Source of the DNA: Bradyrhizobium ottawaense
Lineage (GTDB): Bacteria > Pseudomonadota > Alphaproteobacteria > Rhizobiales > Xanthobacteraceae
Reading direction: 5' to 3'
Assembly (NCBI RefSeq): GCF_900099825.1
Contig: NZ_LT629693.1
Location: forward strand, 7,885,001-7,949,000
Length of the DNA: 64,000 bases
The translations under genes were made by a program, and so were the position numbers. Shown piece by piece: positions 40,108 through 61,409 of this stretch (positions are counted from its first letter, which is position 1; each line of letters opens with the position of its first letter). The notes beneath the pieces are model-generated. The model was not told where the DNA came from. It worked only from the letters and a program-made list of their open reading frames with translations, and searched no databases.

Positions 40108-41812
40108 CCGCCGCCCATTCAAAAATAGCGGTGATCTTGTCGGAAAATTCATCGTCAGCTTCGGTGAGATCGGGACCAATAACATCGCGCGCGACAGTCT
40201 CCATCGCGCCTATGTTTTTGAACCAACCGGCTCCGCTTTTAGCTGCCGTGGCAAGGATCACGCAGCTCTCGTAGGAGATGCCGGTGCCCAATTCCTCTCG
40301 CATGCCATTCAAGTTTTTTGCGTTAGCCGAGGCAGATTTTATATGATCGTTGATAAGTGCTTCTTCCTTAAGCTCGACAGCTGTTTCCAAGAGGCCACGG
40401 GTACCGGAGTTTGATAGGCATTTGAACAGTTCGTCTTCGAGCGCGCTTCCTGGTGCCCATGCGAAGATTTGTCCGCCACCATCGGTAAACCTCTTTTCGG
40501 CCCGCGCCGATATCTGCCTGTCGCTGTCGCGGAGGACGGCAGTTCTGTAACCCAGCGAGAGAAAGGCGTTGGCGCGTTTGAAGGTGTTCGTGCCGCCTCC
40601 ATCAACAAGGCTGACGCCGAGTGCCGTGATCGCCGTTTTGCTCTGCGCGATTCTGTGTTGATCCAGTCCACGCAGAAGGCCAATTTCGGTTGCCCCTTCA
40701 CAGACTATGATGGTTGGCGCGAGCAGGGCGTCCGGCGACAGCCTTATTGTCCCTTGAATGTCGTCGGCGGTCCCGACCACAGTTGCTCGATGTTCCTCGC
40801 CAACCTTGCGGAGTACGTAGAGTTGGCTACCAGATAGCTCTCGCACGGCGACAGGGGAATGTGTCGTGATGAAGGCCTGTAGTGGAGGCGTGCGTTCCTT
40901 GGCGCCAAGGGCATCGATAAGGCGAATGATGCGGTGGGGTTCAAGACCGTATTCGAGCTCATCGACGATTGCGACCGAGGCGTTCTTGGAGGCGCGTCGT
41001 TGAAGGCCAGCGATCAATAGGCGCGAAGAGCCGAGGCCCAAGCCTTTAAGCGGGACTCCGTTTTGGTCATGGAGCGAAATCGTCCCTCCGCTGATCGAAA
41101 CGGAGTGAGCGTCGAGGAGAGCTTTGACTTCATTGCCTATGGGGATGCCGAGTTCGTTAGCAGTCTCGGCAACAACTTGCAACGCGTCCGATAGCTCCTC
41201 TTTTGCTCGCTCACCAAACGTATTCCGCATTTCTCGCGCCGCCGCTATGAGCGCGGTCGAAGTGTCGGCTCGCTCTTCTGAGATACGATTGAGAATGGAG
41301 CCACGTCGCCAGCTAAGGTGATTTTCTGAGAATGTGCCTAGTCTCGTGGGTGCAATACGTTGCCGGTCTGTCCAGTTGAGATTTCTAAACTGACCTTTTG
41401 CGCTGGAACGCTCTGAAACTAAACCCCATTGTGGTTCAAGGTCACTTCCTATCGTCAGAGCAAGCTTCAGGACCGTTTCGAGCCCAACTTCCGGTTCCTC
41501 AGTAACGTCGCCGGTTAGTTCATCAAACCCACTGAGATAGGAGCCGTAGGTCTCGACGTTCTTTAGCGCGTCGTCAAGCGCGCCAAGCGTTACAGCAATG
41601 TTGATGGGGTTTGCGACGTCCATGAGATGGAAATCAGTATCGTTGATTTGCAGATTGCGTCGAGCGCCGAGGCAGTAGTCAATCGCGTCGAGGATGCTGG
41701 ACTTTCCGGTATCGCCAGGACCGATGATGCAATTCACCCCCGGTGAAGGTTCCCAGCTAAACTTCTTCAGGCATCGAAAGTTCGCGATCTCGATTTTCCT
41801 GATGATCGGCAT
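40094..41812 (-). CDS. gajA: Gabija protein GajA (OLD-family ATPase/TOPRIM nuclease)
   Basis: The 572-residue protein has an ABC-type ATPase part with Walker A GPGDTGKSS (31-39) and ITTHSPVAV after the signature region (LKGLGLGSSR), and a C-terminal TOPRIM domain with VCEGATEIG, LVDGGGTNT and RDSDRQ. This pairing with a UvrD helicase gene is the definition of Gabija; GajA is a DNA-nicking endonuclease held back by nucleotides. ATG 41812 (MPIIRKIEIANFRCL) follows AGGACCACCTCA; an in-frame start at 41869 is weaker. Confidence 0.88.
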   Translation of the reverse strand: MPIIRKIEIANFRCLKKFSWEPSPGVNCIIGPGDTGKSSILDAIDYCLGARRNLQINDTDFHLMDVANPINIAVTLGALDDALKNVETYGSYLSGFDELTGDVTEEPEVGLETVLKLALTIGSDLEPQWGLVSERSSAKGQFRNLNWTDRQRIAPTRLGTFSENHLSWRRGSILNRISEERADTSTALIAAAREMRNTFGERAKEELSDALQVVAETANELGIPIGNEVKALLDAHSVSISGGTISLHDQNGVPLKGLGLGSSRLLIAGLQRRASKNASVAIVDELEYGLEPHRIIRLIDALGAKERTPPLQAFITTHSPVAVRELSGSQLYVLRKVGEEHRATVVGTADDIQGTIRLSPDALLAPTIIVCEGATEIGLLRGLDQHRIAQSKTAITALGVSLVDGGGTNTFKRANAFLSLGYRTAVLRDSDRQISARAEKRFTDGGGQIFAWAPGSALEDELFKCLSNSGTRGLLETAVELKEEALINDHIKSASANAKNLNGMREELGTGISYESCVILATAAKSGAGWFKNIGAMETVARDVIGPDLTEADDEFSDKITAIFEWAADGNA

Positions 41813-41981
41813 TGAGGTGGTCCTGACGGGAAGGAAGTGACGCCCCATACGGCCTAGAAGCCGTACCAAGGGAGAGCCCCCAAAGGTTGTTTAGCAGGAC
41901 ATTACACTATGGTTGTAGAGTCAATTCTTGGCTGAGAATACGGGCGCTTTTTGTTTGGGTCGCCATTATCGGTTGAGGAGC
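41813..41981. other. Upstream region of gajA
   Basis: No gene seen. It should hold the promoter for gajA-gajB on the minus strand. Confidence 0.4.
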
Positions 41982-42090
41982 GCACTCACCGACCGCGCGA
42001 TGCAACGTGGACGACGTCGTGGATGAAACACACGAATCGCCGAATTTCAAAGCGAGATCAATAGCGCTTGGCGGAAAGTACGTCCGCCGT
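41982..42090 (+). repeat. Left copy of a diverged direct repeat flanking the RT/DISARM cassette
   Basis: This segment matches 56453-56557 over about 105 bp at roughly 80 percent identity with one small indel. The similarity is also seen after translation (NVDDVVDETHES against NVDGAVGETHES, then NFKARSIALGG against NYKARSVTLGG), so both copies come from one coding sequence. The left copy continues in frame to 42255 (YVRRWRPARLDWLRKLNGNISGVMEA); I do not recognise this protein. Confidence 0.75.
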
Positions 42091-42255
42091 TGGCGTCCAG
42101 CGCGTTTAGATTGGCTGAGGAAGCTGAATGGAAATATTAGTGGGGTGATGGAGGCCGTGTTTCTTACAGCGGCCCTAAGCAAGGCGGAAGCCGGGCGATT
42201 GTTCGGACGATGCGAACTCGCGTCTCTGAGCTACCTCGTCTTGAGAGACCCTTAA
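42007..42255 (+). pseudogene. Fragment of an unknown gene containing the left repeat
   Basis: An open frame of 82 codons (MDDVVDETHES... through KYVRRWRPARLDWLRKLNG and ISGVMEAVFLTAAL). A comparable but shorter, stop-containing version lies at 56469-56550, which argues that it was a real gene whose pieces now flank the cassette. Upstream, the left copy appears frameshifted relative to the right one (extra bases at about 41,997-42,001). Function unknown. Confidence 0.4.
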
Positions 42256-43256
42256 GGGAGACCAAGGCTAGTTCGTAGACGCTTTTCCTGCTCTGGATTT
42301 ATAGACCGAATGTAATCGCCGAACAGCTTCTCGTAGAGATGTAATTTGTGCTCCGCGTCTTCACCCTTTACGAAGCTCGCCGCCTGTTCGAGAAATTTCC
42401 ACATTCGCTCGTCGGTAAAACGTAGCGTTCGGTGAGACATTCGAAGGTTGAAAATGTCTACTTCAGCTCTGGCTGTCTGAGTCTTCGTAGGATTGATCGC
42501 AAAGTGCGACCTACGCAAAAGCGCTATCGCTTGCGAATGTTCGTCTGCGAGCGTTTCAAAATCATTTGAAGAAAAAATGATATCGTCGCTGTAGACGGTA
42601 ACTTTTGATTCGAAGCGGTTGCCAGTCAAGGCTGATCCGAATAGCGATTTCTCCAATACTAGGGTCGCGAGCAGAGAAGATTGTCTAAATCCACGCGGCA
42701 ATGTGCACTTATCGCCTTGGCGTATTGTGCTTTCGCCTGCAATCTTGAACGCCGATGAACGTGCCAAGCCGATAGCTTCAAGTGCGCGGCAAACCTTTGT
42801 GCGGGTGACGTGATCGAAGAATCCCTTCAGGTCGATAACTGCGAAGCATTTGTTGACAAGATGTGGTCGAAGAGCCGCTACGTGAGCCCGCTTGGCGAAG
42901 GCGGTGAATGCCGCGTTCGGCTGCCAATGACTGAAGACGCGCTCCTTAAGTAGTCGCCATTCCTCTTCGCCGTCATAGGCAGCGCGGCCACCCTCTGAAA
43001 AAGTACGCCATCCGGCATAGGACTTCGTGAGGACAAAGTATCGGGTTCCGTCTTTGAGAAATGACCGAGCGACGTTTCGCATGTTTTCAAGAAAGATGAC
43101 AATTGGGGCGAGGTGAAACCTGCCCCAACGCCATTTGGCAGGTATGGCCGTGAAGCCACGAGGAATGCGCCTAAGCGCGCCCTTGCGCAAGGGACCGTCT
43201 CTTTCGCTTGAGAAGGAAGATTTGTCAACGCGGGCCGTATTTTCCTCGTCCCACAT
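42252..43256 (-). CDS. Reverse transcriptase of uncertain defence-type class
   Basis: The 334-residue protein has the RT palm motifs: FAVIDLKGFFDHV (D142), LPRGFRQSSLLATL (186-199), VTVYSDDIIFSS (222-225, with YSDD instead of YADD) and INPTKTQ after it. It has no maturase or endonuclease part. The retron NAxxH motif is not canonical here (ALRPHLVNK at the place) and I see no VTG thumb motif. An in-frame TAA lies directly before ATG 43256, fixing the start, and no ribosome binding site is seen. It diverges from drmD, 230 bp away. An unknown-group or defence-associated RT is the best reading. Confidence 0.82.
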   Translation of the reverse strand: MWDEENTARVDKSSFSSERDGPLRKGALRRIPRGFTAIPAKWRWGRFHLAPIVIFLENMRNVARSFLKDGTRYFVLTKSYAGWRTFSEGGRAAYDGEEEWRLLKERVFSHWQPNAAFTAFAKRAHVAALRPHLVNKCFAVIDLKGFFDHVTRTKVCRALEAIGLARSSAFKIAGESTIRQGDKCTLPRGFRQSSLLATLVLEKSLFGSALTGNRFESKVTVYSDDIIFSSNDFETLADEHSQAIALLRRSHFAINPTKTQTARAEVDIFNLRMSHRTLRFTDERMWKFLEQAASFVKGEDAEHKLHLYEKLFGDYIRSINPEQEKRLRTSLGLP

Positions 43257-43486
43257 TTAACGGGATAACTCGCTGAACAAGCGCGGAAGGGGACGATGGC
43301 CATGACCTGCGAATTGGTTGGCGTATCCAAAGAAATCGGTGGAACGTTGCTCGCCCCTTTTTTAACACCTACCAATTTGGGATAGTTGTTGACGATAATC
43401 GCGCGATGCCCGGTTGACCTTGGGAGCGGATGGCCCGACTATCTTTATGATTGAAACGTCAAATTAGACACGCTTAGGAAGAGAAA
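43257..43486. other. Divergent promoter region between RT and drmD
   Basis: The 230 bp have no gene. AGGAAGAG at the right end is the ribosome binding site of drmD. A T-rich run (CCCCTTTTTTAACACC) near 43,355 could end or start a small RNA. Structured RNA cannot be confirmed by eye. Confidence 0.4.
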
Positions 43487-46400
43487 ATGGGGTCCGTACC
43501 GCAACGCGGTGATTTCGTCCGCGTGCGTTCCCGTCGTTGGCTTGTCGAGGATGAGCGCCCAATTGATGGACTGAAAACCCTTCGTTTGGCATGTGTAGAC
43601 GACGACGCCCAAGGCGAAATAGCCGAAGTCTTGTGGGACGCCGAGATTGACGGCTCAGTTCTTGGGGATGAAGGCTGGGCCAGCGTTGCCAACCTGGGAA
43701 CCGACGACCCCAGCGTCTTTTCGGCCTATTTCCGCACGCTCCGTTGGAACACCGCCACGGCTGCCGATCGTGACCTGTTTCAGGCTCCATTTCGCGCAGG
43801 TATCCATCAAGACACCTATCAGCTGCTTCCCCTGCGGAAGGCCCTTCGTCTGCCTCGCGTCAACCTCCTGATCGCCGACGATGTCGGCGCAGGAAAGACG
43901 GTCGAGGCGGGGTTGGTGTTGCGCGAGATGCTCCTTCGCCGGCGGATTGACTTTGTCCTGGTGGCAGCGCCGGCAGGCATGGTCCGCCAGTGGCAGGAGG
44001 AATTGGACGCGAAGTTCGGCCTATCCTTCACCATCGTCGATCGTGAGTATTTGGCTTCGCTTCGTCGGGAAAGGGGTTATAGCGCGAGCCCATGGGCATC
44101 GGGTTCGCGCTTTATCATTTCGCATTCGCTGCTGGCTGATGAGACCTACGTCGGCGGTCTTTGTGATCTTCTCGGAAATTTCCGGCCTCGCGCGCTTCTA
44201 ATCCTGGATGAAGCACATCACGCAGCACCAGCGAGCGGCTCGCGCTACGCGATAGACAGCCAATTCACGCGCGCCGTGCGCGGGCTGGCCGAGCGCTTCG
44301 AGCACCGTCTCTTCCTGTCGGCCACCCCACACAACGGTCACTCTAATTCGTTTTCGGCGCTGCTGGAAATCCTCGATCCCCAGCGGTTCACACGCGGTGT
44401 CCCGGTGAAGCCCCGCGATCTCGACCCCGTTATGGTGCGGCGCCTGAAATCCGATCTGCGATATTTCGGCGAAACGTTTCCTGAGCGGAGGGTGGAGCCC
44501 ATCCGCATTTCAGGGCTGCCGAGCAATACGCCGGAGCTCGTCCTCTCACAAATGCTCACGGCTTATGGGGAGGCTGTCCGTGCGCGGACGGCCAATCTGC
44601 CGCCGAAAGAGGCGGGCTATATTCGCCTCACATTTGTCGGCCTTCAGCAACGGTTGCTTTCATCGATTGCGGCTTTCGCCAAAACCTTAGAGGTCCATCG
44701 CAAGGGGCTGCTGAAGTTGGATAAATTGGCCTCAATAGCTGCTGCGGAAGCATTCGTCCGGGGTGGCGCCGAGACCGAAGACGACCCCGAAGACGTCGAA
44801 ACCGGGGAAAAGCTGATCCAGGAGGAAGAAGACCAGGCTGCGGAAGCTGCGGGTGCCCTTGCGGCCGGCGTTTCAGACCTGGCCATCATTGATCAGATGT
44901 TGGAAATCGCCCGTAAACACGCGCACGGGCCCGACGCCCGTATCGACAAGCTTGTGGAGTGGATTCGCGCGAACATGGCACCGGCGGGCCAATGGAATGA
45001 GCGCCGGCTGGTTCTCTTCACGGAATACGAGGACACACGCCGCTGGCTAGAAAAGCGGTTGGCCGAAGGTCTCGATGAACTGCACCCCGATGACCGGATC
45101 GCATCGTTCACTGGCTCTACACCAAGCGATCGCCGCGAGGAGTTGAAGCGCCGGTTCAATTCAGATCCCGCCAAGGATCCGCTTCGGATCCTGATCTGCA
45201 CCGACGCGGCAAGGGAGGGCATCAATCTCCAGATGCGCTGCTACGATCTCATTCACGTCGATCTACCCTGGAACCCGGCGCGACTGGAACAGCGCAACGG
45301 CCGGATCGATCGCAAGCTGCAACCCTCCAAAGAAGTATGGTGCCGCTATTTCGTGTACGAGCAACGCCCGGAGGATGTCGTGCTTCAGGCGCTTGTCAGA
45401 AAGACCGAGCGTATCCGCGACCAACTGGGTTCTGCCGGGCAGGTAATCGGCTTCAGGCTGTCGGAGCGCCTGGAGCGCGAGGGCATCTGGCGGGCGCAAA
45501 CTCTTGCACGTGAGATCGACGAGGAGGCGGAAGAAAGTCTCCAGACGACCGCTTTAGTCGAGATGGACGACGAAACATCGGCCCGTCGAGAACGGCAGGC
45601 CCGGGAGCTTGATGATCTCCACGATATCCTTGAGAAGTCGCGGGTAAAGGTGGGCGTGGACCCTAATCTGCTCCACGCGGTCGTCGCGAAAGCCATGTCG
45701 CGCGCTGGTACCTCTCTCGACGCGGTTCGGGTCAGTGACTTCAATGGCACTGCGCTCTACCAGCTCAATCCGTCGGACCCCGCGTTTGCCGGCGGCGGCT
45801 GGCCTGACGCCCTCGACGATCTGAGGGTTCGCCGCCGCAAGCGAAACGAACGGCTGAAGGACTGGCGCGCCACGGCACCTCTGCGTGCGATTTCGTTTCG
45901 GCCGGCGACCACCAAAGAGGGCGCGGATGCCGAGGGCGTGCTTCAGGTTCATCTTGAGCATCGGCTGGTGCGGCGGCTTTTGTCGCGGTTCCTTAGTCAG
46001 GGCTTCGCATCGGGCCTCGCCCGCGCCAGCGTTGTGATCGGGCCGGGCGCCCAGCCGCGCGTCGTTTTGCTCGGTCGGCTGGCGCTCTATGGGCCGGGCG
46101 CAGCGCGGCTGCACGAGGAGATCATCCTGGTGACAGCGGCCTGGACGGAGGCGGGGCGTGGCACAAAACCGTTGCGGCCATTCGGAACGGTGCGTGAAGA
46201 GGCCACCATCGATCAACTCGACAAGGCGTTCGCGAACCCTCGCGAGCCTTCGCGACCGATCGTCGAACGGATCCGGCGATGGGCTGCCCAGGATGCCGCC
46301 GACCTGGAGGCGGAATTACGCAGCCGCGCAGAAGCGCACAAGACCGAAGCCATCAAGGATCTGACCGCTCTCGGCGAGATAGAGGCCAAGTCGCTCCAGC

Positions 46401-46648
46401 GTCTGCTCGAAGACCAGCGCGCTCGGGTCTCCAAGGCCGACGCCGAGCCCGATGATGCACAGCTCTCCCTTTTTGTTGACGCCGAAGCCGAACAGCGGCG
46501 GCGGGACCGGCGCCACTGGAAGACCAAGCTTGAAAAGCTGACGGCGGACATCGCTCAGGAGCCGGATCGAGTGCGCCGCAGTTATTCCGTCGTGGCTGAT
46601 CGGTTAGAGACCATCGGCCTGGTCTACCTGTGGCCAGAAGGTAATTGA
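43487..46648 (+). CDS. drmD: DISARM class 1 SNF2-like helicase DrmD
   Basis: The 1053-residue protein has the SNF2-type helicase core: Walker A DDVGAGKTVEAG (131-142), motif II DEAHH (241-245), SATPHNG, and in the second RecA domain ILICTDAAREGINLQ with ERNGRIDR-like motif VI (LEQRNGRIDRK). The extended C-terminal third is helical and charged. DrmD, with the adenine methylase DrmMI, marks class 1 DISARM, which blocks incoming phage DNA. The order drmD-drmMI-drmA-drmB and tight spacing support this over a lone helicase. Confidence 0.87.
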   Translation: MGSVPQRGDFVRVRSRRWLVEDERPIDGLKTLRLACVDDDAQGEIAEVLWDAEIDGSVLGDEGWASVANLGTDDPSVFSAYFRTLRWNTATAADRDLFQAPFRAGIHQDTYQLLPLRKALRLPRVNLLIADDVGAGKTVEAGLVLREMLLRRRIDFVLVAAPAGMVRQWQEELDAKFGLSFTIVDREYLASLRRERGYSASPWASGSRFIISHSLLADETYVGGLCDLLGNFRPRALLILDEAHHAAPASGSRYAIDSQFTRAVRGLAERFEHRLFLSATPHNGHSNSFSALLEILDPQRFTRGVPVKPRDLDPVMVRRLKSDLRYFGETFPERRVEPIRISGLPSNTPELVLSQMLTAYGEAVRARTANLPPKEAGYIRLTFVGLQQRLLSSIAAFAKTLEVHRKGLLKLDKLASIAAAEAFVRGGAETEDDPEDVETGEKLIQEEEDQAAEAAGALAAGVSDLAIIDQMLEIARKHAHGPDARIDKLVEWIRANMAPAGQWNERRLVLFTEYEDTRRWLEKRLAEGLDELHPDDRIASFTGSTPSDRREELKRRFNSDPAKDPLRILICTDAAREGINLQMRCYDLIHVDLPWNPARLEQRNGRIDRKLQPSKEVWCRYFVYEQRPEDVVLQALVRKTERIRDQLGSAGQVIGFRLSERLEREGIWRAQTLAREIDEEAEESLQTTALVEMDDETSARRERQARELDDLHDILEKSRVKVGVDPNLLHAVVAKAMSRAGTSLDAVRVSDFNGTALYQLNPSDPAFAGGGWPDALDDLRVRRRKRNERLKDWRATAPLRAISFRPATTKEGADAEGVLQVHLEHRLVRRLLSRFLSQGFASGLARASVVIGPGAQPRVVLLGRLALYGPGAARLHEEIILVTAAWTEAGRGTKPLRPFGTVREEATIDQLDKAFANPREPSRPIVERIRRWAAQDAADLEAELRSRAEAHKTEAIKDLTALGEIEAKSLQRLLEDQRARVSKADAEPDDAQLSLFVDAEAEQRRRDRRHWKTKLEKLTADIAQEPDRVRRSYSVVADRLETIGLVYLWPEGN

Positions 46649-46650
46649 GC

Positions 46651-49600
46651 ATGGCCGTAGTAGACTTGAATGAGGAATGGCTCGGCCACGTCCAGCCGAT
46701 CGGCTTGGTCGTTGCGCCCGTGGTGCTGGCTCGCCACGGTCTCAATCCTGAAACACAAACGCGCGCCGACACGGAAGAGGTGCGCAAGCTGTTATCCTCG
46801 AAGGAGGAAGGCGCAACCGCGAAGAACGATGATCTTCGTGCTCTCAGGGACCCTTGGGCGTTCTTTGAGAAGATTCTGGGTTGGCGAACCGCCCTGGTTG
46901 CTGGCGCACCCGGTGGGCCGCCCGTGCCAGAGGGGCTTTCGCTCAGGATCGACGAGAGCGACACCGAAATCGCCCCACACTGGGCAGCGGTAAAACCCGA
47001 CGGTGGATGGCAGATCCTCGCCCGGATCGAAGCGGTTGGCGTAAATCCGGATGCACGTGGCGCCATCGAAGGCTGGGAGGCGTCACCACATCAGCGTCTG
47101 GAGCGCCTGCTTCGGGAAACGGAGGTGCCGATCGGCCTGCTCATCACCGACGACGAGCTGCGGTTCATCTACGCGCCCCGCGGCGAAACCAGCGGCTGGA
47201 TGTGCTTTCCACTGCGCTCGCTTGGAGAGGTTGGCGGGCGCCCTATGCTGGGCGGTCTGAAGCTGCTGCTCTCGTCCTTCCGTTTATACAATGATGCGCC
47301 GAACCGCCGTTTGCCCGCGCTGCTGAAAGCCAGCCGCGATGCACAGGCCGAAGTCTCAACCAAACTGGCCTCGCAGGTGTTGGGCGCGCTCCACGAATTG
47401 CTCCGCGGCCTGCATGCCACTGATGCCAGGAGGGTTGAGACGCTGGCCGCGACCCGGCAAGAACATCTTTACGATGGTTTGCTGACTGTGCTGCTTCGCT
47501 TGGTGTTCCTGCTTTACGCAGAGGACCGTGACCTGATTCCGTCGCGCACCGACGCCGCCGCCCGGGCTTTTTACGATCAAGGCTACGGAGTCCGAACGCT
47601 TTATGCCCGTCTCTTGGACGACAAGGCCCATTACCCTGATACGATGGATGAACGGCGGGGCGCCTGGTCTCGCTTGTTGGCCTTGTTCCGGCTGGTCCAC
47701 GAGGGCGATAGCACCGGCATTTGGATTCGAGGCAGGGGCGGGAAACTCTTCGACACCGCTGAATTCCCCTTCCTGCAAGGCCAGGAGCAAGCATCTCATC
47801 CACCGTCTCCCGCCGCAGTCTCAGACGGGTGCATTCTGCGGATCCTTGATCTTCTCCTGAACCTTGGCGGCGAAAAGCTTTCATATCGCACGCTCGACGT
47901 GGAACAGATCGGCAGCGTCTATGAAACCGTGATGGGCTTTACGATCGAGACCCGGACAGGGCCGGCCCTCGCCATCCGCGCTGGCAAGAACGACCGTACA
48001 CCAGTTTTCGTCGATATTGCCGATCTAACGGCAAAGAAGGCATCGGATAGAGAAAAATTTCTCAAGGAGGAGGCTGGCCGCAATGCGCTGAGCGACAAGG
48101 CCAGCAAGGCCCTGTCAGCGGCTACTAATGCGACGGCGGTGGTCGAGGCACTGCGGCCTATCGTCGACGAGCGCGCCTCGCCGGGTGGGGCGCTCTCTCC
48201 GCCTGGCTCCCCGCTTTTGCAGCCGACGGACGAGCGCCGGCGCACCGGAAGCCATTACACTCCTCGCTCTCTAACGGCGCCAATTGTCGAGTATGCGCTG
48301 AAGCCCGCCTTCGACCGATTGGGACCTGATGCTCGTCCGGAAGAAGTCCTCGAATTGACGGTGTGCGACCCCGCAATGGGATCGGGCGCATTTCTAGTGG
48401 AGGCATGCCGTGCGCTTGGCGAGCGGCTGGTCAAGGCATGGGACCGTTGGCCGGAGAGGCGGCCGATTATTCCGGAGGACGAAGATGAACAACTTCATGC
48501 TCGCCGTCTTGTCGCGCAACGTTGTCTCTACGGCGTGGATAAGAACCCGCGTGCAGTTGACCTCGCCAAGCTTTCGCTCTGGCTTGCGACGCTGGCCCGC
48601 GATCATGAATTCACCTTCCTCGATCATGCGCTAAAATGCGGCGACTCTCTCGTCGGCCTGACAACGTCTCAGATTGGGGCGGCAAATTGGGACGAGTCCA
48701 AGCCAGGGCTGCCGTTGTTCCGACAACTCGTGAAAGATCGCGTAGCCGAAGCGATGAAGGCTAGGGCAGAGATTCAGGCCGCGCCCGACGACACCACGCG
48801 AGCCATCCAAGAAGCGAGGCATCGTGGCGCTGAAGTACGGTTAGCGCCGATTCGCACTATGGGTGATGCTGTGATTTCGGCCTTCTTTGCCGCAGATAAG
48901 TCGAAAGCGCGCGAGAGGAAACGTACTGAGATCGAAAGCTTTTTGACCGGCTCGCTCGAAGCCCAAGTGGAAAAGCTCGAAGCTGCCGTGGCAAGTCTCC
49001 GAGATGGCATAAATCCAGTCCCACCATTTCATTGGCAGATTGAATTCCCGGAAGTCTTCGCCCGGGCGAACAGCGGGTTCGATGCTATCGTCGGCAATCC
49101 GCCGTTCGCCGGCAAGAATACGATCATTCGCAGTAATAGAATGAACTATTTGCCTTGGCTGCAAGCTTTACATGAAGATGCGCACGGCAATGCTGATCTC
49201 GTCGCCCATTTTTTCCGCCGTGCCTTCAAATTGCTCAGGAACAATGGCGTCTTTGGCTTAATCGCCACTAACACCATTGGCCAAGGCGACACTCGTGCGT
49301 CCGGCCTAACGAAGATTCTGTCAGGCGGCGGCTCGATCCTCCGCGCGACGCGACGATTGAAATGGCCGGGCGAAGCAGCCGTGGTGGTCTCAGTTGTACA
49401 CGTAGCGAAGGGTGGCGCGACCAACCCGGTATTAGACAATAGACCGGTTAGTCGCATTTCCGCATATTTAGTGGAAGGAGATCTCGACGGGTCCGCCATA
49501 CGGTTGGCCGCGAACTCGCGGAAGGTTTTAATTGGCTCCTATCCATTGGGCGCGGGCTTTCTATTCGATGATCGGGAATCGAAAAACGGAAAGTGTGAAC

Positions 49601-50643
49601 CACTGGCAAAGGCGGAGGCTCTGCTTGCTCATTCGCCCCACGATGCAAAGAGAGTCCGTCCATTCATAGGCGGCAGCGACTTGACAACAAGCCCACAGCA
49701 AAAATCGAGCCGTCTTATAATCGACTTTAGAGACCTCCCATTAAAACGAGATCAATCGCTTGATAGCTGGATTTCGATGTCCATAGACCAGAGGGCATCT
49801 TGTCTGAGACAAGGTATTGTGCCGGCAAACTATCCGGAGGATGTTTGCTCTGATTGGCCCGACCTATTGGCTATAGTGGAAAAATATGTGCATCCAGAGC
49901 GCGACGCTCAAGGCGACAAGTCAGCAAAACGGAAATGGTGGAAATTTAAGCGACCTAATATGTTCCTATACCGTTCTATCGCGGATGCTGATTTCGTAAT
50001 TGCACGATCTCTCACCAGCACACATTTTTCAACCTTTGCAAGAGTGAGAGCTGATCAAATCTTTGACCAAACGGCGTTGATATTTTTGGGTGAGCCGCAC
50101 AAGACATTGGCGATGCTGTGTTCTCGATTGCATGAAACATGGGTTGATTTCTTTTCAGGTACTCTAAAAGATGACGGACGGTATAACATAGAAGATTGTT
50201 TTGAGACTTTTCCCTTTCTGCCTAACTCTGATTCTTCAGTCGCCATTATGGATGCCGGGAGCGCCTACGATGCCTTCCGCGCCGAACTGATGGTTGCTCG
50301 CAACGAAGGTCTCACCAAGACCTACAATCATTTTCACGCACGCGGAGATAACACGCCGGGTATCGCGCGCCTCCGCGAACTGCACGCTCAAATAGATGCT
50401 GCGATCTTGCGCGCATATGGCTGGAACGACCTCGCCGATAGTGCCGCGCCCGAATTCATTGAACAGGACAGCGATGAGGGAAAGACGCCCAAGACCCACC
50501 TAGACTGGCCGGAAGAGTTCAAGGACGAAGTCCTGGCGCGTCTTCTTTCCCTCAATGCAGAACGTGGCGCCGCTGAACGCTCGGCAGGCGTGACGCCTGT
50601 TGTCACAGACGATGACGAAGAAAATGAAGAGGTCGAGGCCTGA
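46651..50643 (+). CDS. drmMI: DISARM class 1 N6-adenine methyltransferase DrmMI
   Basis: The 1330-residue protein carries the gamma-type N6-adenine methylase motifs: CDPAMGSGAFL (D573 and on) for SAM binding and VGNPPFAGKN (N816-F819) for catalysis, preceded by TGSHYTPRSL, a common signature of type I/IIG-like enzymes. In DISARM the methylase marks host DNA so that the other proteins attack only unmarked DNA. ATG 46651 follows the drmD stop by two bases; TTG 46645 is an alternative. Part of the C-terminal third (49,700-50,200) has lower GC than the rest. Confidence 0.87.
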   Translation: MAVVDLNEEWLGHVQPIGLVVAPVVLARHGLNPETQTRADTEEVRKLLSSKEEGATAKNDDLRALRDPWAFFEKILGWRTALVAGAPGGPPVPEGLSLRIDESDTEIAPHWAAVKPDGGWQILARIEAVGVNPDARGAIEGWEASPHQRLERLLRETEVPIGLLITDDELRFIYAPRGETSGWMCFPLRSLGEVGGRPMLGGLKLLLSSFRLYNDAPNRRLPALLKASRDAQAEVSTKLASQVLGALHELLRGLHATDARRVETLAATRQEHLYDGLLTVLLRLVFLLYAEDRDLIPSRTDAAARAFYDQGYGVRTLYARLLDDKAHYPDTMDERRGAWSRLLALFRLVHEGDSTGIWIRGRGGKLFDTAEFPFLQGQEQASHPPSPAAVSDGCILRILDLLLNLGGEKLSYRTLDVEQIGSVYETVMGFTIETRTGPALAIRAGKNDRTPVFVDIADLTAKKASDREKFLKEEAGRNALSDKASKALSAATNATAVVEALRPIVDERASPGGALSPPGSPLLQPTDERRRTGSHYTPRSLTAPIVEYALKPAFDRLGPDARPEEVLELTVCDPAMGSGAFLVEACRALGERLVKAWDRWPERRPIIPEDEDEQLHARRLVAQRCLYGVDKNPRAVDLAKLSLWLATLARDHEFTFLDHALKCGDSLVGLTTSQIGAANWDESKPGLPLFRQLVKDRVAEAMKARAEIQAAPDDTTRAIQEARHRGAEVRLAPIRTMGDAVISAFFAADKSKARERKRTEIESFLTGSLEAQVEKLEAAVASLRDGINPVPPFHWQIEFPEVFARANSGFDAIVGNPPFAGKNTIIRSNRMNYLPWLQALHEDAHGNADLVAHFFRRAFKLLRNNGVFGLIATNTIGQGDTRASGLTKILSGGGSILRATRRLKWPGEAAVVVSVVHVAKGGATNPVLDNRPVSRISAYLVEGDLDGSAIRLAANSRKVLIGSYPLGAGFLFDDRESKNGKCEPLAKAEALLAHSPHDAKRVRPFIGGSDLTTSPQQKSSRLIIDFRDLPLKRDQSLDSWISMSIDQRASCLRQGIVPANYPEDVCSDWPDLLAIVEKYVHPERDAQGDKSAKRKWWKFKRPNMFLYRSIADADFVIARSLTSTHFSTFARVRADQIFDQTALIFLGEPHKTLAMLCSRLHETWVDFFSGTLKDDGRYNIEDCFETFPFLPNSDSSVAIMDAGSAYDAFRAELMVARNEGLTKTYNHFHARGDNTPGIARLRELHAQIDAAILRAYGWNDLADSAAPEFIEQDSDEGKTPKTHLDWPEEFKDEVLARLLSLNAERGAAERSAGVTPVVTDDDEENEEVEA

Positions 50644-53600
50644 TGACAATCGCTCCAGCCCCCGCCAACGCCAATGCAATCCGGAGACGGCTCGTCGATG
50701 TACTCCGCCGCGATCTGATTGGACCGGATCCATCGGACGTTGACCTTCACAACGAGCGGCTGACGGACAATCCGTCCCGCTGGTATCTCGCTGGCTTCCT
50801 TGCACCGGCGCCAGACGGAGCAGGAGAAGAAGCGGAAACCATCGAAGATGTCGGTGATCCACTTTTTGGCGATGATGAAGGTGCCGATCCAGAAGTTGGC
50901 GGCGGGCGAGCCGCGGACGATACGCCGGATGACGAGCCGTCTGCGCGGAAGAGCAGGGCGCCTTCCTCCTGTGGGTTAACGGTGATGATCAACGCTTCAG
51001 TGCGCGAGATCGAGGTGACCCTGAGCTGGGGTGACTATGTCACCCTTCCGCCCTTGCCCGACGAAGTATTCCTCAACGAGAAGGCCCAGTTCGACCCCGC
51101 TTATCGGAATGTTCAATGGCAGCGGATGCCAGGCAAGGAAACGGTACGTTTGACCGTGCCCGAGAACGGTCGCGGTCACCCAGTGATCGTGCCTAATTCC
51201 GCCGGGCGGCAGCACCCCGGGGGCGGCATGGTTTTGGAGGTTCACGCTCGTCCATATTCTCTCGACCAACCCGACGGCAGCAAGAAGCATGTGCGGGCCG
51301 TTACCATTATGGTCGTAAACCGTCGTAAGAGCACGGTTCGCCGTTTTAGTGATGTTACTTTCGCTTTCCAAGTTCGGCTGGAAGTGCATTGCCCTATCGG
51401 TCTGCATCCACGCGGTGACCTGACGGGCTACGGTTCTAGGGATCCAGACGCGGCTCTAGCCGATCTGCACTATCGCGACGTCGCCGAGTTTGCTGTCGGA
51501 TGCAATACGTCGGCCGGCTGGAACTTCGAGGAGGCAGGCCAAGTTCGCACTGCGTTTACTGATTTTCTTCCCGCTGCCGAGGTCGAGCGCGTTGAGCCAA
51601 ACGAACAGATCCCAGACGTTGAATTCGGGATGGAAGCCTTGGCGGCGCTAGCGGCCAGTGGCCCCGACGTCCTTGCAGACGCCCTGCGGCTTCTGCCGCT
51701 CCACCATGAGACCTGGATCGCCGCCCAGGATAGCGGGATTGTTGGAATTCCGGGTGCGTCGCGACAAGTCACGGCTCGGCGCTTGGTTGCCTCTGCCCGG
51801 CAAGCACGAGATCGAATTGCCGCAGGCATCGAGCTTTTGCGGACCGATCAATATGCGCGTCTCGCGTTCCGTGCGATGAATGAGGCTGTCGCTCGCGCCG
51901 CTCGTCAGCGCGACGCCGGCGCCGGCGGCGATCCAAGTGCCCAACGCAAACCCACTTGGCGTCCTTTTCAGCTAGCTTTCATCCTCCTCAATCTGTCTGG
52001 CTTGCAGGAACCGTTGCATTCCGAGCGTGAGATCGTCGATTTGCTGTTCTTTCCGACGGGCGGCGGCAAGACGGAGGCTTACCTCGGTCTGGCAGCCTGG
52101 ACGATCGCCCATCGCCGCATCACCAACGGCGGAACGCTTGGAGCCGGTGTCGCCGTGCTCATGCGCTACACGCTGCGACTGCTCACGCTGGACCAGCTTT
52201 CTCGCGCCGCGGGTGTCGTCTGCGCCCTGGAGCTGATGCGCGACGAGCTTGCTTGGCAGCAGGGCGAAAAGAAGATGCTGGGAGACTGGCCAATCGAGAT
52301 CGGCCTTTGGGTCGGTTCGGCAGCGTCACCAAATCGGCTTGGCAAGACCGGCGACGGTCGAAATGACACCGCGGTGGCGCGCGTCCGACGTTATCGTAAG
52401 GACGGCCGTGAAGCGCCGGCTCCCATCAAGGCGTGCCCATGGTGCAACGAACCGTTTTCTCGCGAAAGCTTCGCCTGTCATCCGAACAATACTGCGCCGC
52501 AGAATATGGAGATCCGCTGTGCCAGCGTCGCGTGTCCTTTTACCGGTAAACGCTCACTGCCCATTCTGACCGTCGACGAAGTCATTTACCGTCGTTTGCC
52601 CGCTTTCGTGATCGCTACGGTCGATAAGTTTGCTGGATTGCCTTGGCTCGCCGAAGCTGGCGCGTTCTTCGGTAATGTCGACCGGGAGGATCAGTGGGGT
52701 TTCTACGGTGCGGCCGACCCGGTTGGCGTTGGCCGGAAGCTCGATGGTGGGGCAAGTCTCTTGCCACCGGCATTGATCATCCAGGACGAGTTGCACCTCA
52801 TTAGCGGCCCGCTCGGGACCGTGGCCGCGCTCTATGAAGTCGTGCTCGACCGCCTGGCGACTCGGCGGAGAGAGGGCAAGCTCATCCGTCCCAAGGTAGT
52901 TGCAAGCACTGCTACTGTCCGAAGGGCGAGCGCGCAGATTGAGGCGCTGTTCGACAGGCACCGGACCGAAGTATTTCCACCACCTGGACCGGATCGGCGC
53001 GATAGCTTCTTCGCCAAGACCGTGTCACCTGCGACGAAACCGGCACGGCTCTATTTGGGGCTCGCAGCGCCCGGAAAGGGTCCGAAGCTGATTTTTATGC
53101 GGGTGCTCACGACGCTGTTGGCTGCGGCTGAGAAGGAGGCCCAGGCCGGAGGCGACGCCGACGCTTACCTTACCGCGCTCTGTTATTTCAACGCGCTTCG
53201 CGAACTCGGCGGGGCTCGCCGGATCGTGGAGGACGAGGTGCGGACACGTCTCGCCACTTACGGCTCCAAGCGGCGAAGAGAAATTCCACACGATCAGCCC
53301 TTCGCCGACCGCCGTTTGCGTGAGGTGCTGGAGCTGACGTCGCGTGAAAACACCGACAAGGTTGCAGCGGCCAAGGAAGCGTTGGGTAAACCGTGCTCGG
53401 ACCCAAAAAACGGAGTCGACGTGGCGCTGGCCACCAACATGATTTCGGTCGGCCTGGACATTGGTCGGCTCGGGTTGATGGTGGTGCAGGGGCAGCCCAA
53501 AGCTGCCGCTGAATATATCCAAGCGACAAGTCGCGTCGGCCGTCAAACGGATAAGCCTGGCCTGGTACTGGTGCTCCTGAATGCCCACAAACCACGCGAC

Positions 53601-54110
53601 AGGTTGCACTACGAGGGGTTCCGGCATTTCCATGCCTGCTTCTACCGCGCCGTAGAGGCCACCAGCGTCACCCCGTGGGCAGCGCGAGCGATGGATCGTG
53701 CTCTGGCCGCAGTCGTCGTTGCTGCCGCTCGCCATCTCATTCCGGATTTGACAGCCGATGGTTCGGCTGGAGAGGTCGGTGGTTACAAGACCGCCCGGGC
53801 GGATATCGTGAAGATGATCCTGGATCGGGCGCCGCCCGCCGACGTCGTCGGCGGACATGCGGCGCTTAGCGCTGCAATTAATGTGCTTATCGATTCCTGG
53901 GAAGGTCTCGCCGCCGACAAGAAGAACAACGCGGAGCGTCTTTTCTACGGCTACCCCAGAGAGAAAGCCCTACTGCATGATCCGCTCGATCCTCTGCTTG
54001 CATCGCTCGATCCGGAATTCCGGAAGTTTACGGCAGGCCGATCAATGCGTGATGTCGAACACGCCGCGGCTCTGAAGATCACCGATCCCTACGGCCAGAC
54101 CCTGACCTGA
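50643..54110 (+). CDS. drmA: DISARM helicase-domain protein DrmA
   Basis: The 1155-residue protein has an N-terminal part without known domain and a central superfamily 2 helicase: Walker A PTGGGKTEA (471-479), motif II QDELHLISG (D715), STATVRRA, and MISVGLDIGRLGLMVVQGQ followed by YIQATSRVGR. A cysteine set (CPWCNEPF with later CASVACPF) around residues 600-635 may bind zinc. DrmA is the core translocase with DrmB in both DISARM classes. Its ATG overlaps the drmMI stop by one base. Confidence 0.9.
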   Translation: MTIAPAPANANAIRRRLVDVLRRDLIGPDPSDVDLHNERLTDNPSRWYLAGFLAPAPDGAGEEAETIEDVGDPLFGDDEGADPEVGGGRAADDTPDDEPSARKSRAPSSCGLTVMINASVREIEVTLSWGDYVTLPPLPDEVFLNEKAQFDPAYRNVQWQRMPGKETVRLTVPENGRGHPVIVPNSAGRQHPGGGMVLEVHARPYSLDQPDGSKKHVRAVTIMVVNRRKSTVRRFSDVTFAFQVRLEVHCPIGLHPRGDLTGYGSRDPDAALADLHYRDVAEFAVGCNTSAGWNFEEAGQVRTAFTDFLPAAEVERVEPNEQIPDVEFGMEALAALAASGPDVLADALRLLPLHHETWIAAQDSGIVGIPGASRQVTARRLVASARQARDRIAAGIELLRTDQYARLAFRAMNEAVARAARQRDAGAGGDPSAQRKPTWRPFQLAFILLNLSGLQEPLHSEREIVDLLFFPTGGGKTEAYLGLAAWTIAHRRITNGGTLGAGVAVLMRYTLRLLTLDQLSRAAGVVCALELMRDELAWQQGEKKMLGDWPIEIGLWVGSAASPNRLGKTGDGRNDTAVARVRRYRKDGREAPAPIKACPWCNEPFSRESFACHPNNTAPQNMEIRCASVACPFTGKRSLPILTVDEVIYRRLPAFVIATVDKFAGLPWLAEAGAFFGNVDREDQWGFYGAADPVGVGRKLDGGASLLPPALIIQDELHLISGPLGTVAALYEVVLDRLATRRREGKLIRPKVVASTATVRRASAQIEALFDRHRTEVFPPPGPDRRDSFFAKTVSPATKPARLYLGLAAPGKGPKLIFMRVLTTLLAAAEKEAQAGGDADAYLTALCYFNALRELGGARRIVEDEVRTRLATYGSKRRREIPHDQPFADRRLREVLELTSRENTDKVAAAKEALGKPCSDPKNGVDVALATNMISVGLDIGRLGLMVVQGQPKAAAEYIQATSRVGRQTDKPGLVLVLLNAHKPRDRLHYEGFRHFHACFYRAVEATSVTPWAARAMDRALAAVVVAAARHLIPDLTADGSAGEVGGYKTARADIVKMILDRAPPADVVGGHAALSAAINVLIDSWEGLAADKKNNAERLFYGYPREKALLHDPLDPLLASLDPEFRKFTAGRSMRDVEHAAALKITDPYGQTLT

Positions 54111-54123
54111 AACGAGAGCACCT

Positions 54124-56028
54124 ATGGCAGATAATAAGGTCAGGCTGAGCCAGATCGTGGGCACCTTTGGACCGGGCTCGATGCTCGATCTTCCGGAACG
54201 ATCAGTGCTCGTCCTTGGTCTCGATCATTGGGAGATGTTCGGAACGGGGACATTCAAGGTCATTCAGGAACCGCGTCTTCAGCGGCTGCTTCACCAGCGC
54301 CTCAAGGACGATGCCCGCATTATCGGCGACCGGCCACCGGAATTCAGGACGCCGCCGATCGATGCTGGCGATCCGAAACGTCCGTCGCCGGCGATAAAGG
54401 TGACTGTCTTTCCGCGATGGTTTGCTTGTGATGCCATTGCCGGCGATCCGCCGAACCGCCGCCGGCTAGCGCGGTTCCAGGACCTCGAACCGCCGAAGCG
54501 GCTTGAGTACAAAGGCGACGACGGCAAGAGAAGAAAAGCCTCGCCTATCCGTTTCGTCTGTGGTTGCGAGAACGGCCACCTTCAAGACATCGAATGGCGT
54601 GGGGTAGTCCATCAGAACTTCCGCGGTGAGGCGGGCGGAACTGCCGGCCCTTGCCGCAGAGAAATGTGGCTTGAAGACTCTGGGACCAGCGCTGATCCGC
54701 GAGACACCCGTATTTCCTGCGACTGTGGAGCGTCCCTGTCGCTGGAAGAGCTGTTTCAGCCTGGTCGTCTTGGCTCTTGCCCGGGGGAGCGCCCCTGGAT
54801 CATCGATCGGGAAGTCGAAAAGTGCAACGCTGAGAAAGGACTGAGATTACTTACGCGAAGTGCCACCAATACCTACTTCCCCCAGGTCGCCCGGGTGATT
54901 TCGCTCCCCCAGACAGTTGACGAACTGGCGCGGCGAATTGAGGTGGTTTGGTCCGTTTTGAGCGACTGTAAGGCGATCGGTGATATTCAAGCCGCACGAC
55001 GCTTCAATCCGGAAGTGAGGGCGAACTTGGATGGCTACTCTGACGAGGAGATACTCGCGAGCGTCCTTTCCATAGCCAACGGGGGTAATAGGGCGGAAGC
55101 AGCGGATGTAGAGGATCCGAGGATCGCCGAATTCAAATTGCTCGCAAGTGGCAATACATTAATCGGTGAAAACGCGTCCGGTGCTCATCTGCACGCACAA
55201 ACGCTCGACCGGTCAATCTGGGATCCTGCCTCTGACCCGTCGCTGAGCGGAATCAATTCACTCGTTGCGGTACATCGATTGCGGGAAGTGGCTTGCCTCT
55301 ACGGTTTTACGAGGTTTGAGCCTGCCCCTCTAGCCAATGAGGATTTGGAAGACGTCGGTCTCGCCGTGAACGGGGCCGCTCTCGGGCAAAATCCCGAGTG
55401 GCTTCCTGCGGTGGAGCAATTCGGCGAGGGCTTCTTCATTCAGTTCTCTACAGAGGCGCTGGCGCAATGGTTAGCTCGGCCCGCTGTGCTCGCGCGCGCT
55501 CAGCAGCTTCAGGCTGGGGCTACGGCTTGGATAGACGCCAAACGAGCTAGGGGCATGGCGGTCAGCGCAAACATTCTCAACGAGCGCGAGCGACCTGAAT
55601 ACATCATGGCGCACAGCCTGGCTCATGCCCTCATGACCGAGGTGGCGATCGACTGCGGCTATCCGGCCAGCGCCTTGAAAGAACGCATATATCTTCTTCC
55701 GCGGCTGCCCGGCCAGCCGATCCAGTGCGGCATCCTGATCTACACCGCGAGTGCCGGAAACCAGGGAACCCTGGGCGGCCTAGTCGAAATCACTCACCGC
55801 TTTGCCAAGGTTCTGAAGTCCGCCCTCGAACGCGAACGCCTGTGCTCTGGCGATCCAGTCTGTGCAGATCATGATCCAGTGAGAGCGGACGATGACAGGA
55901 TGCTGCACGGCGCCGCCTGCCACGGATGCTTGCTGATCTCAGAGACGAGTTGCGAGGCGCGAAATGTGCTTCTTGATCGGGTGCTGTTGGTCGATACCGT
56001 GGGACCCACCGGTGCGGCATTTTTCTAA
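54124..56028 (+). CDS. drmB: DISARM DUF1998 protein DrmB
   Basis: The 634-residue protein has the DUF1998 domain at its C-terminal third (MAHSLAHALMTEVAIDCGY, LPRLPGQPIQCGILIYTAS) and a cysteine/histidine cluster (CSGDPVCADHD, HGAACHGCLLISETSCEARN) that probably binds zinc. Earlier CGCENGHL and CDCG motifs suggest a second site. DrmB forms a complex with DrmA that loads on DNA ends. It starts 13 bp after drmA. The usual drmC (phospholipase D-like) gene does not follow. Confidence 0.9.
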   Translation: MADNKVRLSQIVGTFGPGSMLDLPERSVLVLGLDHWEMFGTGTFKVIQEPRLQRLLHQRLKDDARIIGDRPPEFRTPPIDAGDPKRPSPAIKVTVFPRWFACDAIAGDPPNRRRLARFQDLEPPKRLEYKGDDGKRRKASPIRFVCGCENGHLQDIEWRGVVHQNFRGEAGGTAGPCRREMWLEDSGTSADPRDTRISCDCGASLSLEELFQPGRLGSCPGERPWIIDREVEKCNAEKGLRLLTRSATNTYFPQVARVISLPQTVDELARRIEVVWSVLSDCKAIGDIQAARRFNPEVRANLDGYSDEEILASVLSIANGGNRAEAADVEDPRIAEFKLLASGNTLIGENASGAHLHAQTLDRSIWDPASDPSLSGINSLVAVHRLREVACLYGFTRFEPAPLANEDLEDVGLAVNGAALGQNPEWLPAVEQFGEGFFIQFSTEALAQWLARPAVLARAQQLQAGATAWIDAKRARGMAVSANILNERERPEYIMAHSLAHALMTEVAIDCGYPASALKERIYLLPRLPGQPIQCGILIYTASAGNQGTLGGLVEITHRFAKVLKSALERERLCSGDPVCADHDPVRADDDRMLHGAACHGCLLISETSCEARNVLLDRVLLVDTVGPTGAAFF

Positions 56029-56102
56029 AGACTCTGCGGTTGGGAGGTCGTGCGTAGGCGCGGTGCCATCCGTCCATTCTTCAACAGCTCTTGCGGTAGG
56101 GG

Positions 56103-56441
56103 GTGATTACAGCAAACCAACACTCGGTCGCCGACGTATTGGGCGACACTTTTCTTCACGAGATTCCACCTTATCAACGCCCCTACGCCTGGACGCCCGA
56201 ACACGCTCTCCGACTGCTGGACGTTCTCAGGGAGGCAATGCAGTATGGTGATGGAGTGCCGTATTTTCTAGGAAGCATCGTTCTGATTGAGGCGGCCGGG
56301 CAGAACATCGGCCAGGTGGTCGACGGGCAACAACGCCTGACCCTCGCGATTTTGGCGGCCGTCTTGAGAGACGTGGCAACGGACAAACTGGAGCGTAAAG
56401 CCCATTCTGCGGCCGCACCCCCGCGGAAAGTTTGGTGCTAG
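56103..56441 (+). pseudogene. DUF262 (GmrSD/ParB-nuclease-like) protein, truncated
   Basis: GTG 56103 with GGTAGGG upstream begins a protein having the DUF262 motifs IPPYQRPYAW and VVDGQQRLTLAIL. Such proteins belong to type IV restriction (GmrS) and related defence nucleases and are normally several hundred residues long. Here the frame stops after 112 residues; the end (KAHSAAAPPRKVWC) no longer looks like the family, and the direct repeat begins 12 bp later. The rest was lost at the cassette edge. Confidence 0.75.
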
Positions 56442-56452
56442 ACAGCGCCCGT

Positions 56453-56557
56453 GCACTCTCCGACCGAAGCAACGTGGATGGCGCCGTGGGTGAAACACAC
56501 GAATCGGCGAATTACAAAGCACGATCAGTAACGCTTGGCGGAGGGTAGATCCGCCAA
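56453..56557 (+). repeat. Right copy of a diverged direct repeat flanking the RT/DISARM cassette
   Basis: It matches 41982-42090 (see that entry), in the same orientation, 14.5 kb apart. It contains the inverted piece GGCGGAGGGTAGATCCGCC, also present in the left copy with changed loop. The coding frame ends here with TAG, so this copy is the shorter one. Confidence 0.75.
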
Positions 56558-56747
56558 ATGCGGGAAGGCCAGTTCTGAACTGTTCGCTCTCCCGAGACCT
56601 GCACAGTACGTCGGTTATTCTCCCGGAAGCGGGTAGAGTCGAAGTGTGACGCGGTAGTTTTAGGTTCGAACATATCTGTTTCCGCCCCTTTCGTTTGGCG
56701 GTGCCTTACTGGTTCGACCATGGCCCCGTTTTCACACTCCGCTCATC

Positions 56748-56780
56748 GAACCGGACAGGCGGATTTCCCGCATCCGGCTC
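56748..56780 (-). ncRNA. Group II intron domain V
   Basis: Read on the minus strand, GAGCCGGATGCGGGAAAT and TCCGCCTGTCCGGTTC form the two-part hairpin of domain V, with the 5' end GAGCCG pairing with CGGTTC and a GAAA tetraloop-like turn. This element is the catalytic centre of the intron. Confidence 0.78.
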
Positions 56781-56792
56781 TCGGACAAAACG

Positions 56793-58124
56793 TCACGCCT
56801 TCACCCACGGCACGTCGTGCCCAAGCATGCTCAGCCGTACGAGCCCGAAGTGCCCGTAGAGATGCGGGAGTGGATAGGTCCCGCCCTTGCGTCGCCTGAC
56901 CTTGTGCTTGATGCGCAACCACCGGCGCAACCGCATCGCGGTGTAGCTATCGAGTGCCCGATACGCCTTGCTGACAGTGCCTACTTGGAAGTAGTTCGAC
57001 CATCCGCGCAGCGTGCGGTTCACCTTGCCCACCAGCTTTGTGGTTTCTTGCCATGTCCCCGTTCGGTCTGTCAGTGCGTGGATTTTCTCAACCATGCGCT
57101 TGATGCTCTTCTTCGATGGCCGGTATCCCAGGCGCGCCTGGCCGGTTCTCTCTGAGAACATCCGTCCGAACGTGTAGCCCAAGAAGTCGAACTCACCTTC
57201 CGGAACCCTGCAGATTCGTGTCTTCTCCTCGTTGACCGTGAGCTTCAGCTTGCTCATGATCTTGCGCAGTTGCTGCAAGGCTTCTTCGGCTTTGCCTCTC
57301 CGACACAGGATCACGAGATCGTCGGCGTAGGTCACGATACGAGAGCCGAGGCTTTGCTCCAACCCGAGCATATTCCATCCCAGCACAAACCGGCGCATGT
57401 AAATATTCGCCAGTAGTGGGGAGATGGGTGACCCTTGCGGGATGCCTCGCCGGTTGTCCCGGGCTTCGGTCGTGCGTGTCTTCCTTCCTCGATCATCGGT
57501 TTCTTCTACGGGGCATTCCAGCCACATCTTGATCAGATGCAGCACGCGCCGATCAACAATCCGGCGCGCTACCGACTTTAGTAGTTCGGCATGGGGGATG
57601 CTCCCGAAGTAGTCCGCGAGGTCGGCGTCAACGACTTCCGGATGGCCTCGGAACAGCAGCCGGTCCACCTCAATTACCGCCTGCTGGGCATTTCGCCCAG
57701 GACGGTACGCGTACTGTTCGGGTGGAAGGTCGGCTTCGAAGATCGGTTCCAGCACCAGCATCGCTGCCGTCATGCAGACCCGATCCCGCACGGTCGAGAT
57801 GCCCAGCGGCCTGAGCTTGCCGTTGGCCTTCGGGATGAACACTCTTCTGATAGGATCCGGTCGGTAGCTTTCCTCCCGGAGCGCAAGCGCCAGTTCGCCA
57901 AGCCATCGCCCTACGCCATACGCATCGATATCCGCAAAGTCTTGACCGTCCACACCCGGTGCGCCCTTGTTGGAGCGGCACTGGGCATAGGCATGGGCCA
58001 GAATGTCCTCGCGGCTGATCTTGTCGTACAGGGCATAGAACCGATAGCCGGCTTCTGCCTTCGCTTTCGCGTGCAACGCCTTCTGCAGTTTCTGAACAGT
58101 TTTCGGAGTTGATAGGTTACCCAA
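56793..58124 (-). CDS. ltrA: Group II intron reverse transcriptase/maturase
   Basis: The 443-residue protein has the RT motifs [33 protein letters not shown] and [12 protein letters not shown], followed by the maturase domain ([19 protein letters not shown]). It has no HNH endonuclease domain, as in many bacterial introns. The intron-encoded protein helps splicing and inserts the intron RNA into DNA. It appears complete. Confidence 0.93.
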
Positions 58125-61245: not shown

Positions 61246-61409
61246 CTACCGACAACTTCAGCTTTGGGTCAAAATCTGCCCTGACGACCAGAAGTGGCCA
61301 CGTCAGGTCTTCCCCCAAAAGCGGACCTCGACAGCACCCACAGCATTGCCTTGCAGCGTCGGCGCGCGTGGCTGTTGGGTTGGGCGGCGACCAGCGGTAA
61401 GCCAGCGTC
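61246..61409. other. Intergenic stretch
   Basis: No gene, hairpin or repeat was found here. Confidence 0.4.

Follow-up and report, generated by a model that had tools for sequence, protein, structure and literature searches.

Defence genes are known to cluster in genomic islands, in which the joints between neighbouring systems are rarely readable. Integrons are one point of comparison: as at the locus described here, the integrase lies at one end and the units stand in a row, each ending in one site and all in one orientation. Composite islands are a further point of reference: according to the accessible part of PMC5704250, several modules can lie behind one target gene, modules without an integrase keep their attachment sites, and decay is part of the accepted model of accretion and of cis-mobilizable elements (CIMEs). 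The Dehalococcoides ssrA islands, in the portion of PMC3146451 available to us, are series of modules marked by repeats, with 15 of 31 lacking an integration module and being proposed as cis-mobilizable. In this study, a site of 96 bp, in which core and arm are a fixed distance apart, was found to mark the ends of defence modules in at least four islands, one of which lies in Bradyrhizobium ottawaense and is probably composite.

The DNA that was analysed (the window) is a stretch of 64,000 nucleotides, which contains most of a 31-kb island spanning positions 34622 to 65695. On the right, this island reaches a tRNA-Ser(UGA) gene (65695-65784, minus strand) and an integrase gene with Arm-DNA-bind_3 and Phage_int_M domains (64384-65523), both past the window end. 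The island left end consists of a core, TGGCGGAAGGGGTG (34622-34635, plus strand), which is a copy of the tRNA-Ser(UGA) 3' end, and an arm pair CCACG-N7-CCACG (34689-34705, plus strand) at 66 bases from the core start. The same tRNA 3' end recurs leftward in two related genomes, designated G108 and G032 (G108:C1 5570930 and G032:C34 1440). In all three genomes, copies of the repeat that is the subject of this study (REP) lie left of an Arm-DNA-bind_3/Phage_int_M integrase adjoining tRNA-Ser(UGA), and the three integrases are 76-86% identical in pairwise comparison. Pfam gave no catalytic-domain match in these three integrases; by eye, they contain HGMR and AYRRS stretches that we take to correspond to known motifs.

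With up to two mismatches, the left-end motif was present in 14 of 265 genomes of the genus, and a tRNA-Ser lay to its right in all ten of these 14 that were fetched. DNA shared with three relatives (G285, G216, and G184) starts exactly at the tRNA 3' end (65695) and continues over 1.7-2.0 kb, which fits the right border of the island; for a fourth, G137, sharing from this position extends over 141 bp. An empty site was not recovered, since nothing left of 65695 in these four genomes matches the window. Because of this, and because the genes left of the island are placed elsewhere in relatives, the left flank is not demonstrably ancestral. Genes in this flank (window 2419-31000) include those for FixO, FixP, a heavy-metal P-type ATPase, a cation ATPase, an acyl-CoA ligase-acetyltransferase, and MlaE/MlaD. 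In G108 a second integrase, ∼40% identical, lies just outside the island left end (L074 9570-10772), which suggests tandem islands at tRNA-Ser.

Two modules of the window island end in a REP. The left one is a Gabija system, with gajB (helicase; 38683-40185, minus strand, PADLOC E 6e-185) and gajA (ATPase/nuclease; 40094-41869, minus strand, PADLOC E 7e-226) adjacent to each other and left of the first repeat, REP L. The right one, between REP L and REP R, was correctly described by the sequence-only reading as holding a reverse transcriptase (RT), drmD-drmMI-drmA-drmB, and a cut DUF262 gene, with nothing else. The RT is retron-like (open frame 42252-43256, minus strand), and many of its relatives start at a methionine corresponding to 43082. 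It is followed on the plus strand by drmD (43487-46648; NCBIfam E 1e-297, above cut-off), drmMI (46645-50643; PADLOC E 0), drmA (50643-54110; NCBIfam DrmAS above cut-off), and drmB (54124-56028; NCBIfam DrmB family above cut-off). The four genes match curated models and stand in the order of class 1 DISARM, while drmC was not found among the 16 island ORFs scanned with PADLOC. The truncated DUF262/GmrSD_N gene (112 aa; 56103-56441, plus strand) comes last, its end adjoining the arm side of REP R. At 75 bp to the right of REP R lies a group II intron (56633-58591, minus strand; maturase 56793-58124), and beyond it are a GntR/aminotransferase gene, an FMN-binding gene, and an AAA_25 (RepA-like) gene (62644-63852, minus strand) that is common to the other islands.

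Other islands have other cargo in their REP-ended modules: McrBC and a DndB-type gene with a borderline HATPase in G032, and a HEPN/Toprim gene in G108. PADLOC returned only weak restriction-enzyme matches among the G032 and G108 module proteins, for the McrB-like protein. A single REP in a further genome (G105:C33, L096), in an island with the same integrase, is surrounded by genes that look phage-like by eye, and some of these islands may be prophages or satellites.

The direct repeats that had been reported to border the RT-DISARM block are real: 41982-42088 and 56453-56555 align over 107 bp with 81.3% identity (E 4e-23). Their ungapped part covers 96 bases at 82% identity and corresponds to the two predicted attachment half-sites, REP L (41993-42088, plus strand; core 42070-42088, overlap AAGTACG, arm pair 42006-42022 on the minus strand) and REP R (56460-56555, plus strand; core 56537-56555, overlap GGGTAGA, arm pair 56473-56489 on the minus strand). 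A search with 41900-42150 (E 0.001) found two copies in the 8.34-Mb single-contig genome, both at the block borders. No match was obtained in a plasmid search with 41900-42252, and an order-wide search at E 1e-4 (249 genomes, few of the same genus) matched only the own genome (1 of 249). When the left repeat was read as protein against 265 genomes of the genus, copies a few kb apart emerged in G108 and G032, which were confirmed as DNA.

Altogether we counted 11 REPs: two in the window, four in G108, three in G032, and one each in G105 and G124. This count leaves out 16 of 30 matches to the REP model that had E-values between 1e-4 and 0.01, and also G124:C4 (1e-5), G048, and G240 (both 1e-8), which carry the tRNA overlap and were taken as left ends. 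The ten REPs in the four tRNA-Ser islands (window, G108, G032, and G105) all have the same orientation, which is inverted relative to the left end of the island itself. For the REP of G124, no tRNA and no relative of the island integrase (at E 1e-8) was found in the 20 kb around it. This REP (L133 6749-9999, G124:C2) lies beside an AlbA_2/Schlafen gene and a gene that is also present in a G032 module.

Homology between REP regions ends at the outer core edge, and one case allowed this edge to be compared with DNA that has no REP. One REP of G108 is followed on its right by DNA with an XRE-type regulator gene, whose stop codon touches the core. Over 315 bp, this DNA shows 85% identity to window 61409-61723, where the corresponding gene (61410-61673, minus strand) has no REP. 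The match begins at most two bases from the outer edge of the REP core, and in this one case the edge thus behaves as a recombination junction. A joint of two elements is seen in G032, where a second, internal left end begins 8 bases after a REP. The possibility that REP R marks a fixed chromosomal target was considered and rejected, since its core half plus overlap occurred at only seven places in six of 60 genomes, two of these places being REPs.

Read on the minus strand, a REP consists of GGCGGA, seven variable bases, and TCCGCC, with a CCACG-N7-CCACG pair at 66 bases from the core start. This layout is that of the left ends of the tRNA-Ser(UGA) islands, and for this reason the REP looks, from its sequence, like an attachment half-site (core plus one arm, attL-like) of Arm-DNA-bind_3 tyrosine integrases, and not like the copy of a target gene that had been supposed earlier. 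With up to two mismatches, the arm pair is found at 66 (in one case 65) bases in nine of the 11 REPs and, again with one at 65, in ten of 13 listed left ends; among the remaining left ends, G108 and G121 have their best pair elsewhere and G240 was read at the wrong place. In five right ends the pair occurs at a single place, 142 bases before the tRNA core, and likewise in a sixth, that of G247. Exact arm pairs were counted on both strands of 182 kb of island DNA, and all 19 belonged to left ends (seven), right ends (six), or REPs (six), with none elsewhere; in random 160-bp windows the frequency of an exact pair is 0.25%. The same 182-kb scan revealed no integrase-side end (arm pair) of any module inside the islands.

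A weight matrix built from eight left ends, which were collected by core pattern alone with the overlap ignored, was run over both strands of 62 stretches (1,216,053 bases, some stretches overlapping). All ten REPs were among the 27 best unique positions, and only two positions unrelated to them scored above the weakest REP. Once the core was removed from this matrix the signal became weaker and counted against the assignment: the ten REPs ranked 14 to 39 (the two of the window at 23 and 31), with several unrelated positions among them. A core-free matrix from 11 left ends placed nine of ten REPs in the top 25, G032a not being listed, and this result is partly circular because G048, G240, and G182 came from the REP model; the eight-end repeat omits all three. 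In the reverse direction, a matrix made from REPs only ranked ten of 11 left ends high, and G121 failed. Further observations against the half-site reading are the decayed arms of G032a and G032b and the site G108w1, in which the outer half-site varies along with the inner one as though it were part of the site. Moreover, the tRNA-Ser overlap AGGGGTG is present in none of the 11 REPs, which speaks against a plain tRNA-Ser attachment site and means that the REPs are not plain scars of tRNA-Ser accretion.

The RT was compared with known families and with its neighbours. Against the retron St85 model it scored 47.9 bits with a cut-off of 235, and no retron family cut-off was reached; the nearest solved chain is that of retron Ec86 (E 6e-10). 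The region 5' of the RT (43083-43330, minus strand) folds better than 200 of 200 shuffles, with a weak z of -2.5, and gave no Rfam match at gathering score; an RT-linked RNA at this place is possible. Close relatives of the RT have 80-89% identity, and the named ones are Bradyrhizobium. In annotated relatives the N-terminus falls in differing frames of 43083-43330, as if DNA rather than protein were conserved, and two relatives (P0028 and P0029) are listed with both the RT domain (PF00078) and an AAA ATPase domain (PF00004) in one protein. Plasmids yielded nine records, all below 60% identity, genome contigs four distant loci, and viral contigs no relative. Plasmids of Agrobacterium and Phyllobacterium carry a distant relative of the RT that is convergent with the gene of a ∼205-aa protein (L008 9797-10411, L009 9764-10384); the two proteins resemble each other and have, by eye, hydrophobic, membrane-like ends. 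The left repeat does not encode this protein, and the idea of such a partner gene of the RT at the repeat was rejected.

The RT and DISARM genes are divergent neighbours between two REPs with nothing else between them, and the sequence-only reading had regarded them as one transferable unit. Their distribution makes one functional, transferable defence unit very unlikely. Matches to the RT (E up to 0.001) and to DrmB (E up to 1e-20) were each found in 14 of 265 genomes of the genus, the own genome included, and only the own genome had both, with 0.7 expected by chance; the other 13 RT matches are distant (31-37%). For nine of the 13 other DISARM loci, stretches with flanks were fetched (four loci are distant, about 29-39% identity), of which seven show 1-4 kb upstream of drmD and two are cut inside drmD. 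None of these nine had an RT match, and none of seven RT stretches had drm matches, one of the seven giving no RT match at that threshold. Within the genomes and stretches searched, RT and DISARM are thus rarely adjacent in relatives, an outcome that the earlier reading had itself named as refuting its claim. The RT next to DISARM looks like a chance neighbour within one module and not like part of a joint system.

As to the repeat itself, a small structured RNA, a MITE-like repeat, or a duplicated gene fragment would be in line with the 19-base hairpin in the REP core and with a frame that is open in two copies, and yet we consider any of these highly improbable. The hairpin pairs show no covariation above shuffles (94 of 500 shuffles reach the value). 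It is formally right that both window copies encode one short protein stretch, as the sequence-only reading had it, but no coding signal accompanies it: eight of ten aligned copies have a stop codon in the frame (winL and G032c are free of stops), in winR, G108a, G108b, and G032a this stop falls inside the core hairpin, and differences among seven strong copies are spread over codon positions 1, 2, and 3 as 139, 119, and 163. A coding sequence was rejected because the frame is not conserved. Also against these alternatives are the presence of only two copies in the own genome, the clustering in one orientation elsewhere, and the arm geometry of an attachment site.

The reading that we favour, and hold to be probable, is a composite defence island in which the modules each kept one predicted attachment end through capture and decay. 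Modules that were once separate and integrative would have been captured by site-specific recombination, with related integrases acting, and would later have lost their integrase ends. The cut DUF262 gene, which lies next to REP R on its arm side, agrees with such a loss, whereas the absence of any integrase-side module end in the 182-kb scan and the failure to recover an empty site count against this reading. Each module (Gabija; RT plus DISARM with the DUF262 remnant) has a single REP at its right end, always in one orientation. Site anatomy, recurrence, orientation, and, in one case, an outer edge of recombination type were observed directly, whereas we infer that an integrase once used the REPs and in which order modules were captured and ends lost; doubt concerns the history of the island more than the nature of the REP site. 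The island could alternatively be an active, integron-like array of large defence cassettes, each ending in a one-armed site, but this seems doubtful. In such an array, cassettes would enter and leave through recombination of one REP with another, carried out by the tRNA-Ser integrase or by a relative that acts in trans. That each unit has a single site, that ten of ten REPs point the same way, that an integrase lies at one array end, and that the defence cargo varies would all agree with this. So would the overlaps, which recur between genomes (GGGTAGA in the window, G108, and G032; AAGTACA in G032 and G124; TGCTGTA in G108 and G105), differ by one base between G108a and G108b, and in the case of AAGTACA accompany a homologous gene of unknown function that the G032 and G124 modules have in common. 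Against the array stand site arms unlike integron attC and the finding of no cassette in two array contexts beyond this one G032/G124 gene. A further difficulty is that the two overlaps of the window differ at four of seven bases, the remainder of the site being 85% identical. Since tyrosine recombinases as a rule require matching overlaps, excision between REP L and REP R is unlikely. REP L also has its closer match in a different genome, being 89% identical to G108b and 85% identical to REP R, and the earlier proposal that the whole block travelled together between these two copies is unsupported. What stands of the proposed cassette between target-gene copies is that its borders are of recombination type, belong to a mobile island, and are found again in relatives, where they flank other cargo. 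Only with little probability would the island be a working modular platform, on which an arm-binding integrase loads and unloads multi-gene defence cassettes through one-armed, palindromic, inverted sites; overlap types serving as addresses that set which cassettes (Gabija, RT-DISARM, McrBC, DndB) can exchange is an equally tentative idea.

If the composite reading is right, the assembly of defence islands becomes directly testable by sequence search and by PCR for circles, and a check of this kind would be needed before neighbours of the RT and DISARM type are regarded as a single system. Literature searches limited to titles and abstract openings, with subscription papers largely outside, turned up no description of such sites; they covered RTs paired with DISARM, tRNA-Ser islands of Bradyrhizobium, tyrosine-recombinase arrays resembling integrons, and attachment sites in defence islands. 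Compared with CIMEs, which keep attL and attR of the same specificity according to the accessible part of PMC5704250, the window modules show one half-site each, inverted to the island left end and with overlaps other than that of the tRNA; attL and attR are not both kept, while the modules do share their target gene with an integrase-bearing element, to which they lie in tandem. The Dehalococcoides ssrA islands, as far as the available part of PMC3146451 describes them, use a serine recombinase and have repeats that are copies of the ssrA 3' end with one specificity, unlike the REPs. The tripartite ICEs of Mesorhizobium are a rhizobial parallel, in which attachment sites that differ in specificity border the parts and several tyrosine integrases are present; in the accessible part of PMC5882170, however, they occupy three separate chromosomal regions with full attL/attR pairs and three integrases, whereas the window island shows one integrase and half-sites only. 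The island integrase, judged by its Arm-DNA-bind_3 and Phage_int_M domains, does not look like an integron integrase; in contrast to integrons, the sites carry arms at a fixed distance and the window units are whole operons of 7-14 kb. Were the platform reading true, the island would represent an integron-like capture system derived from another recombinase and carrying whole defence operons.
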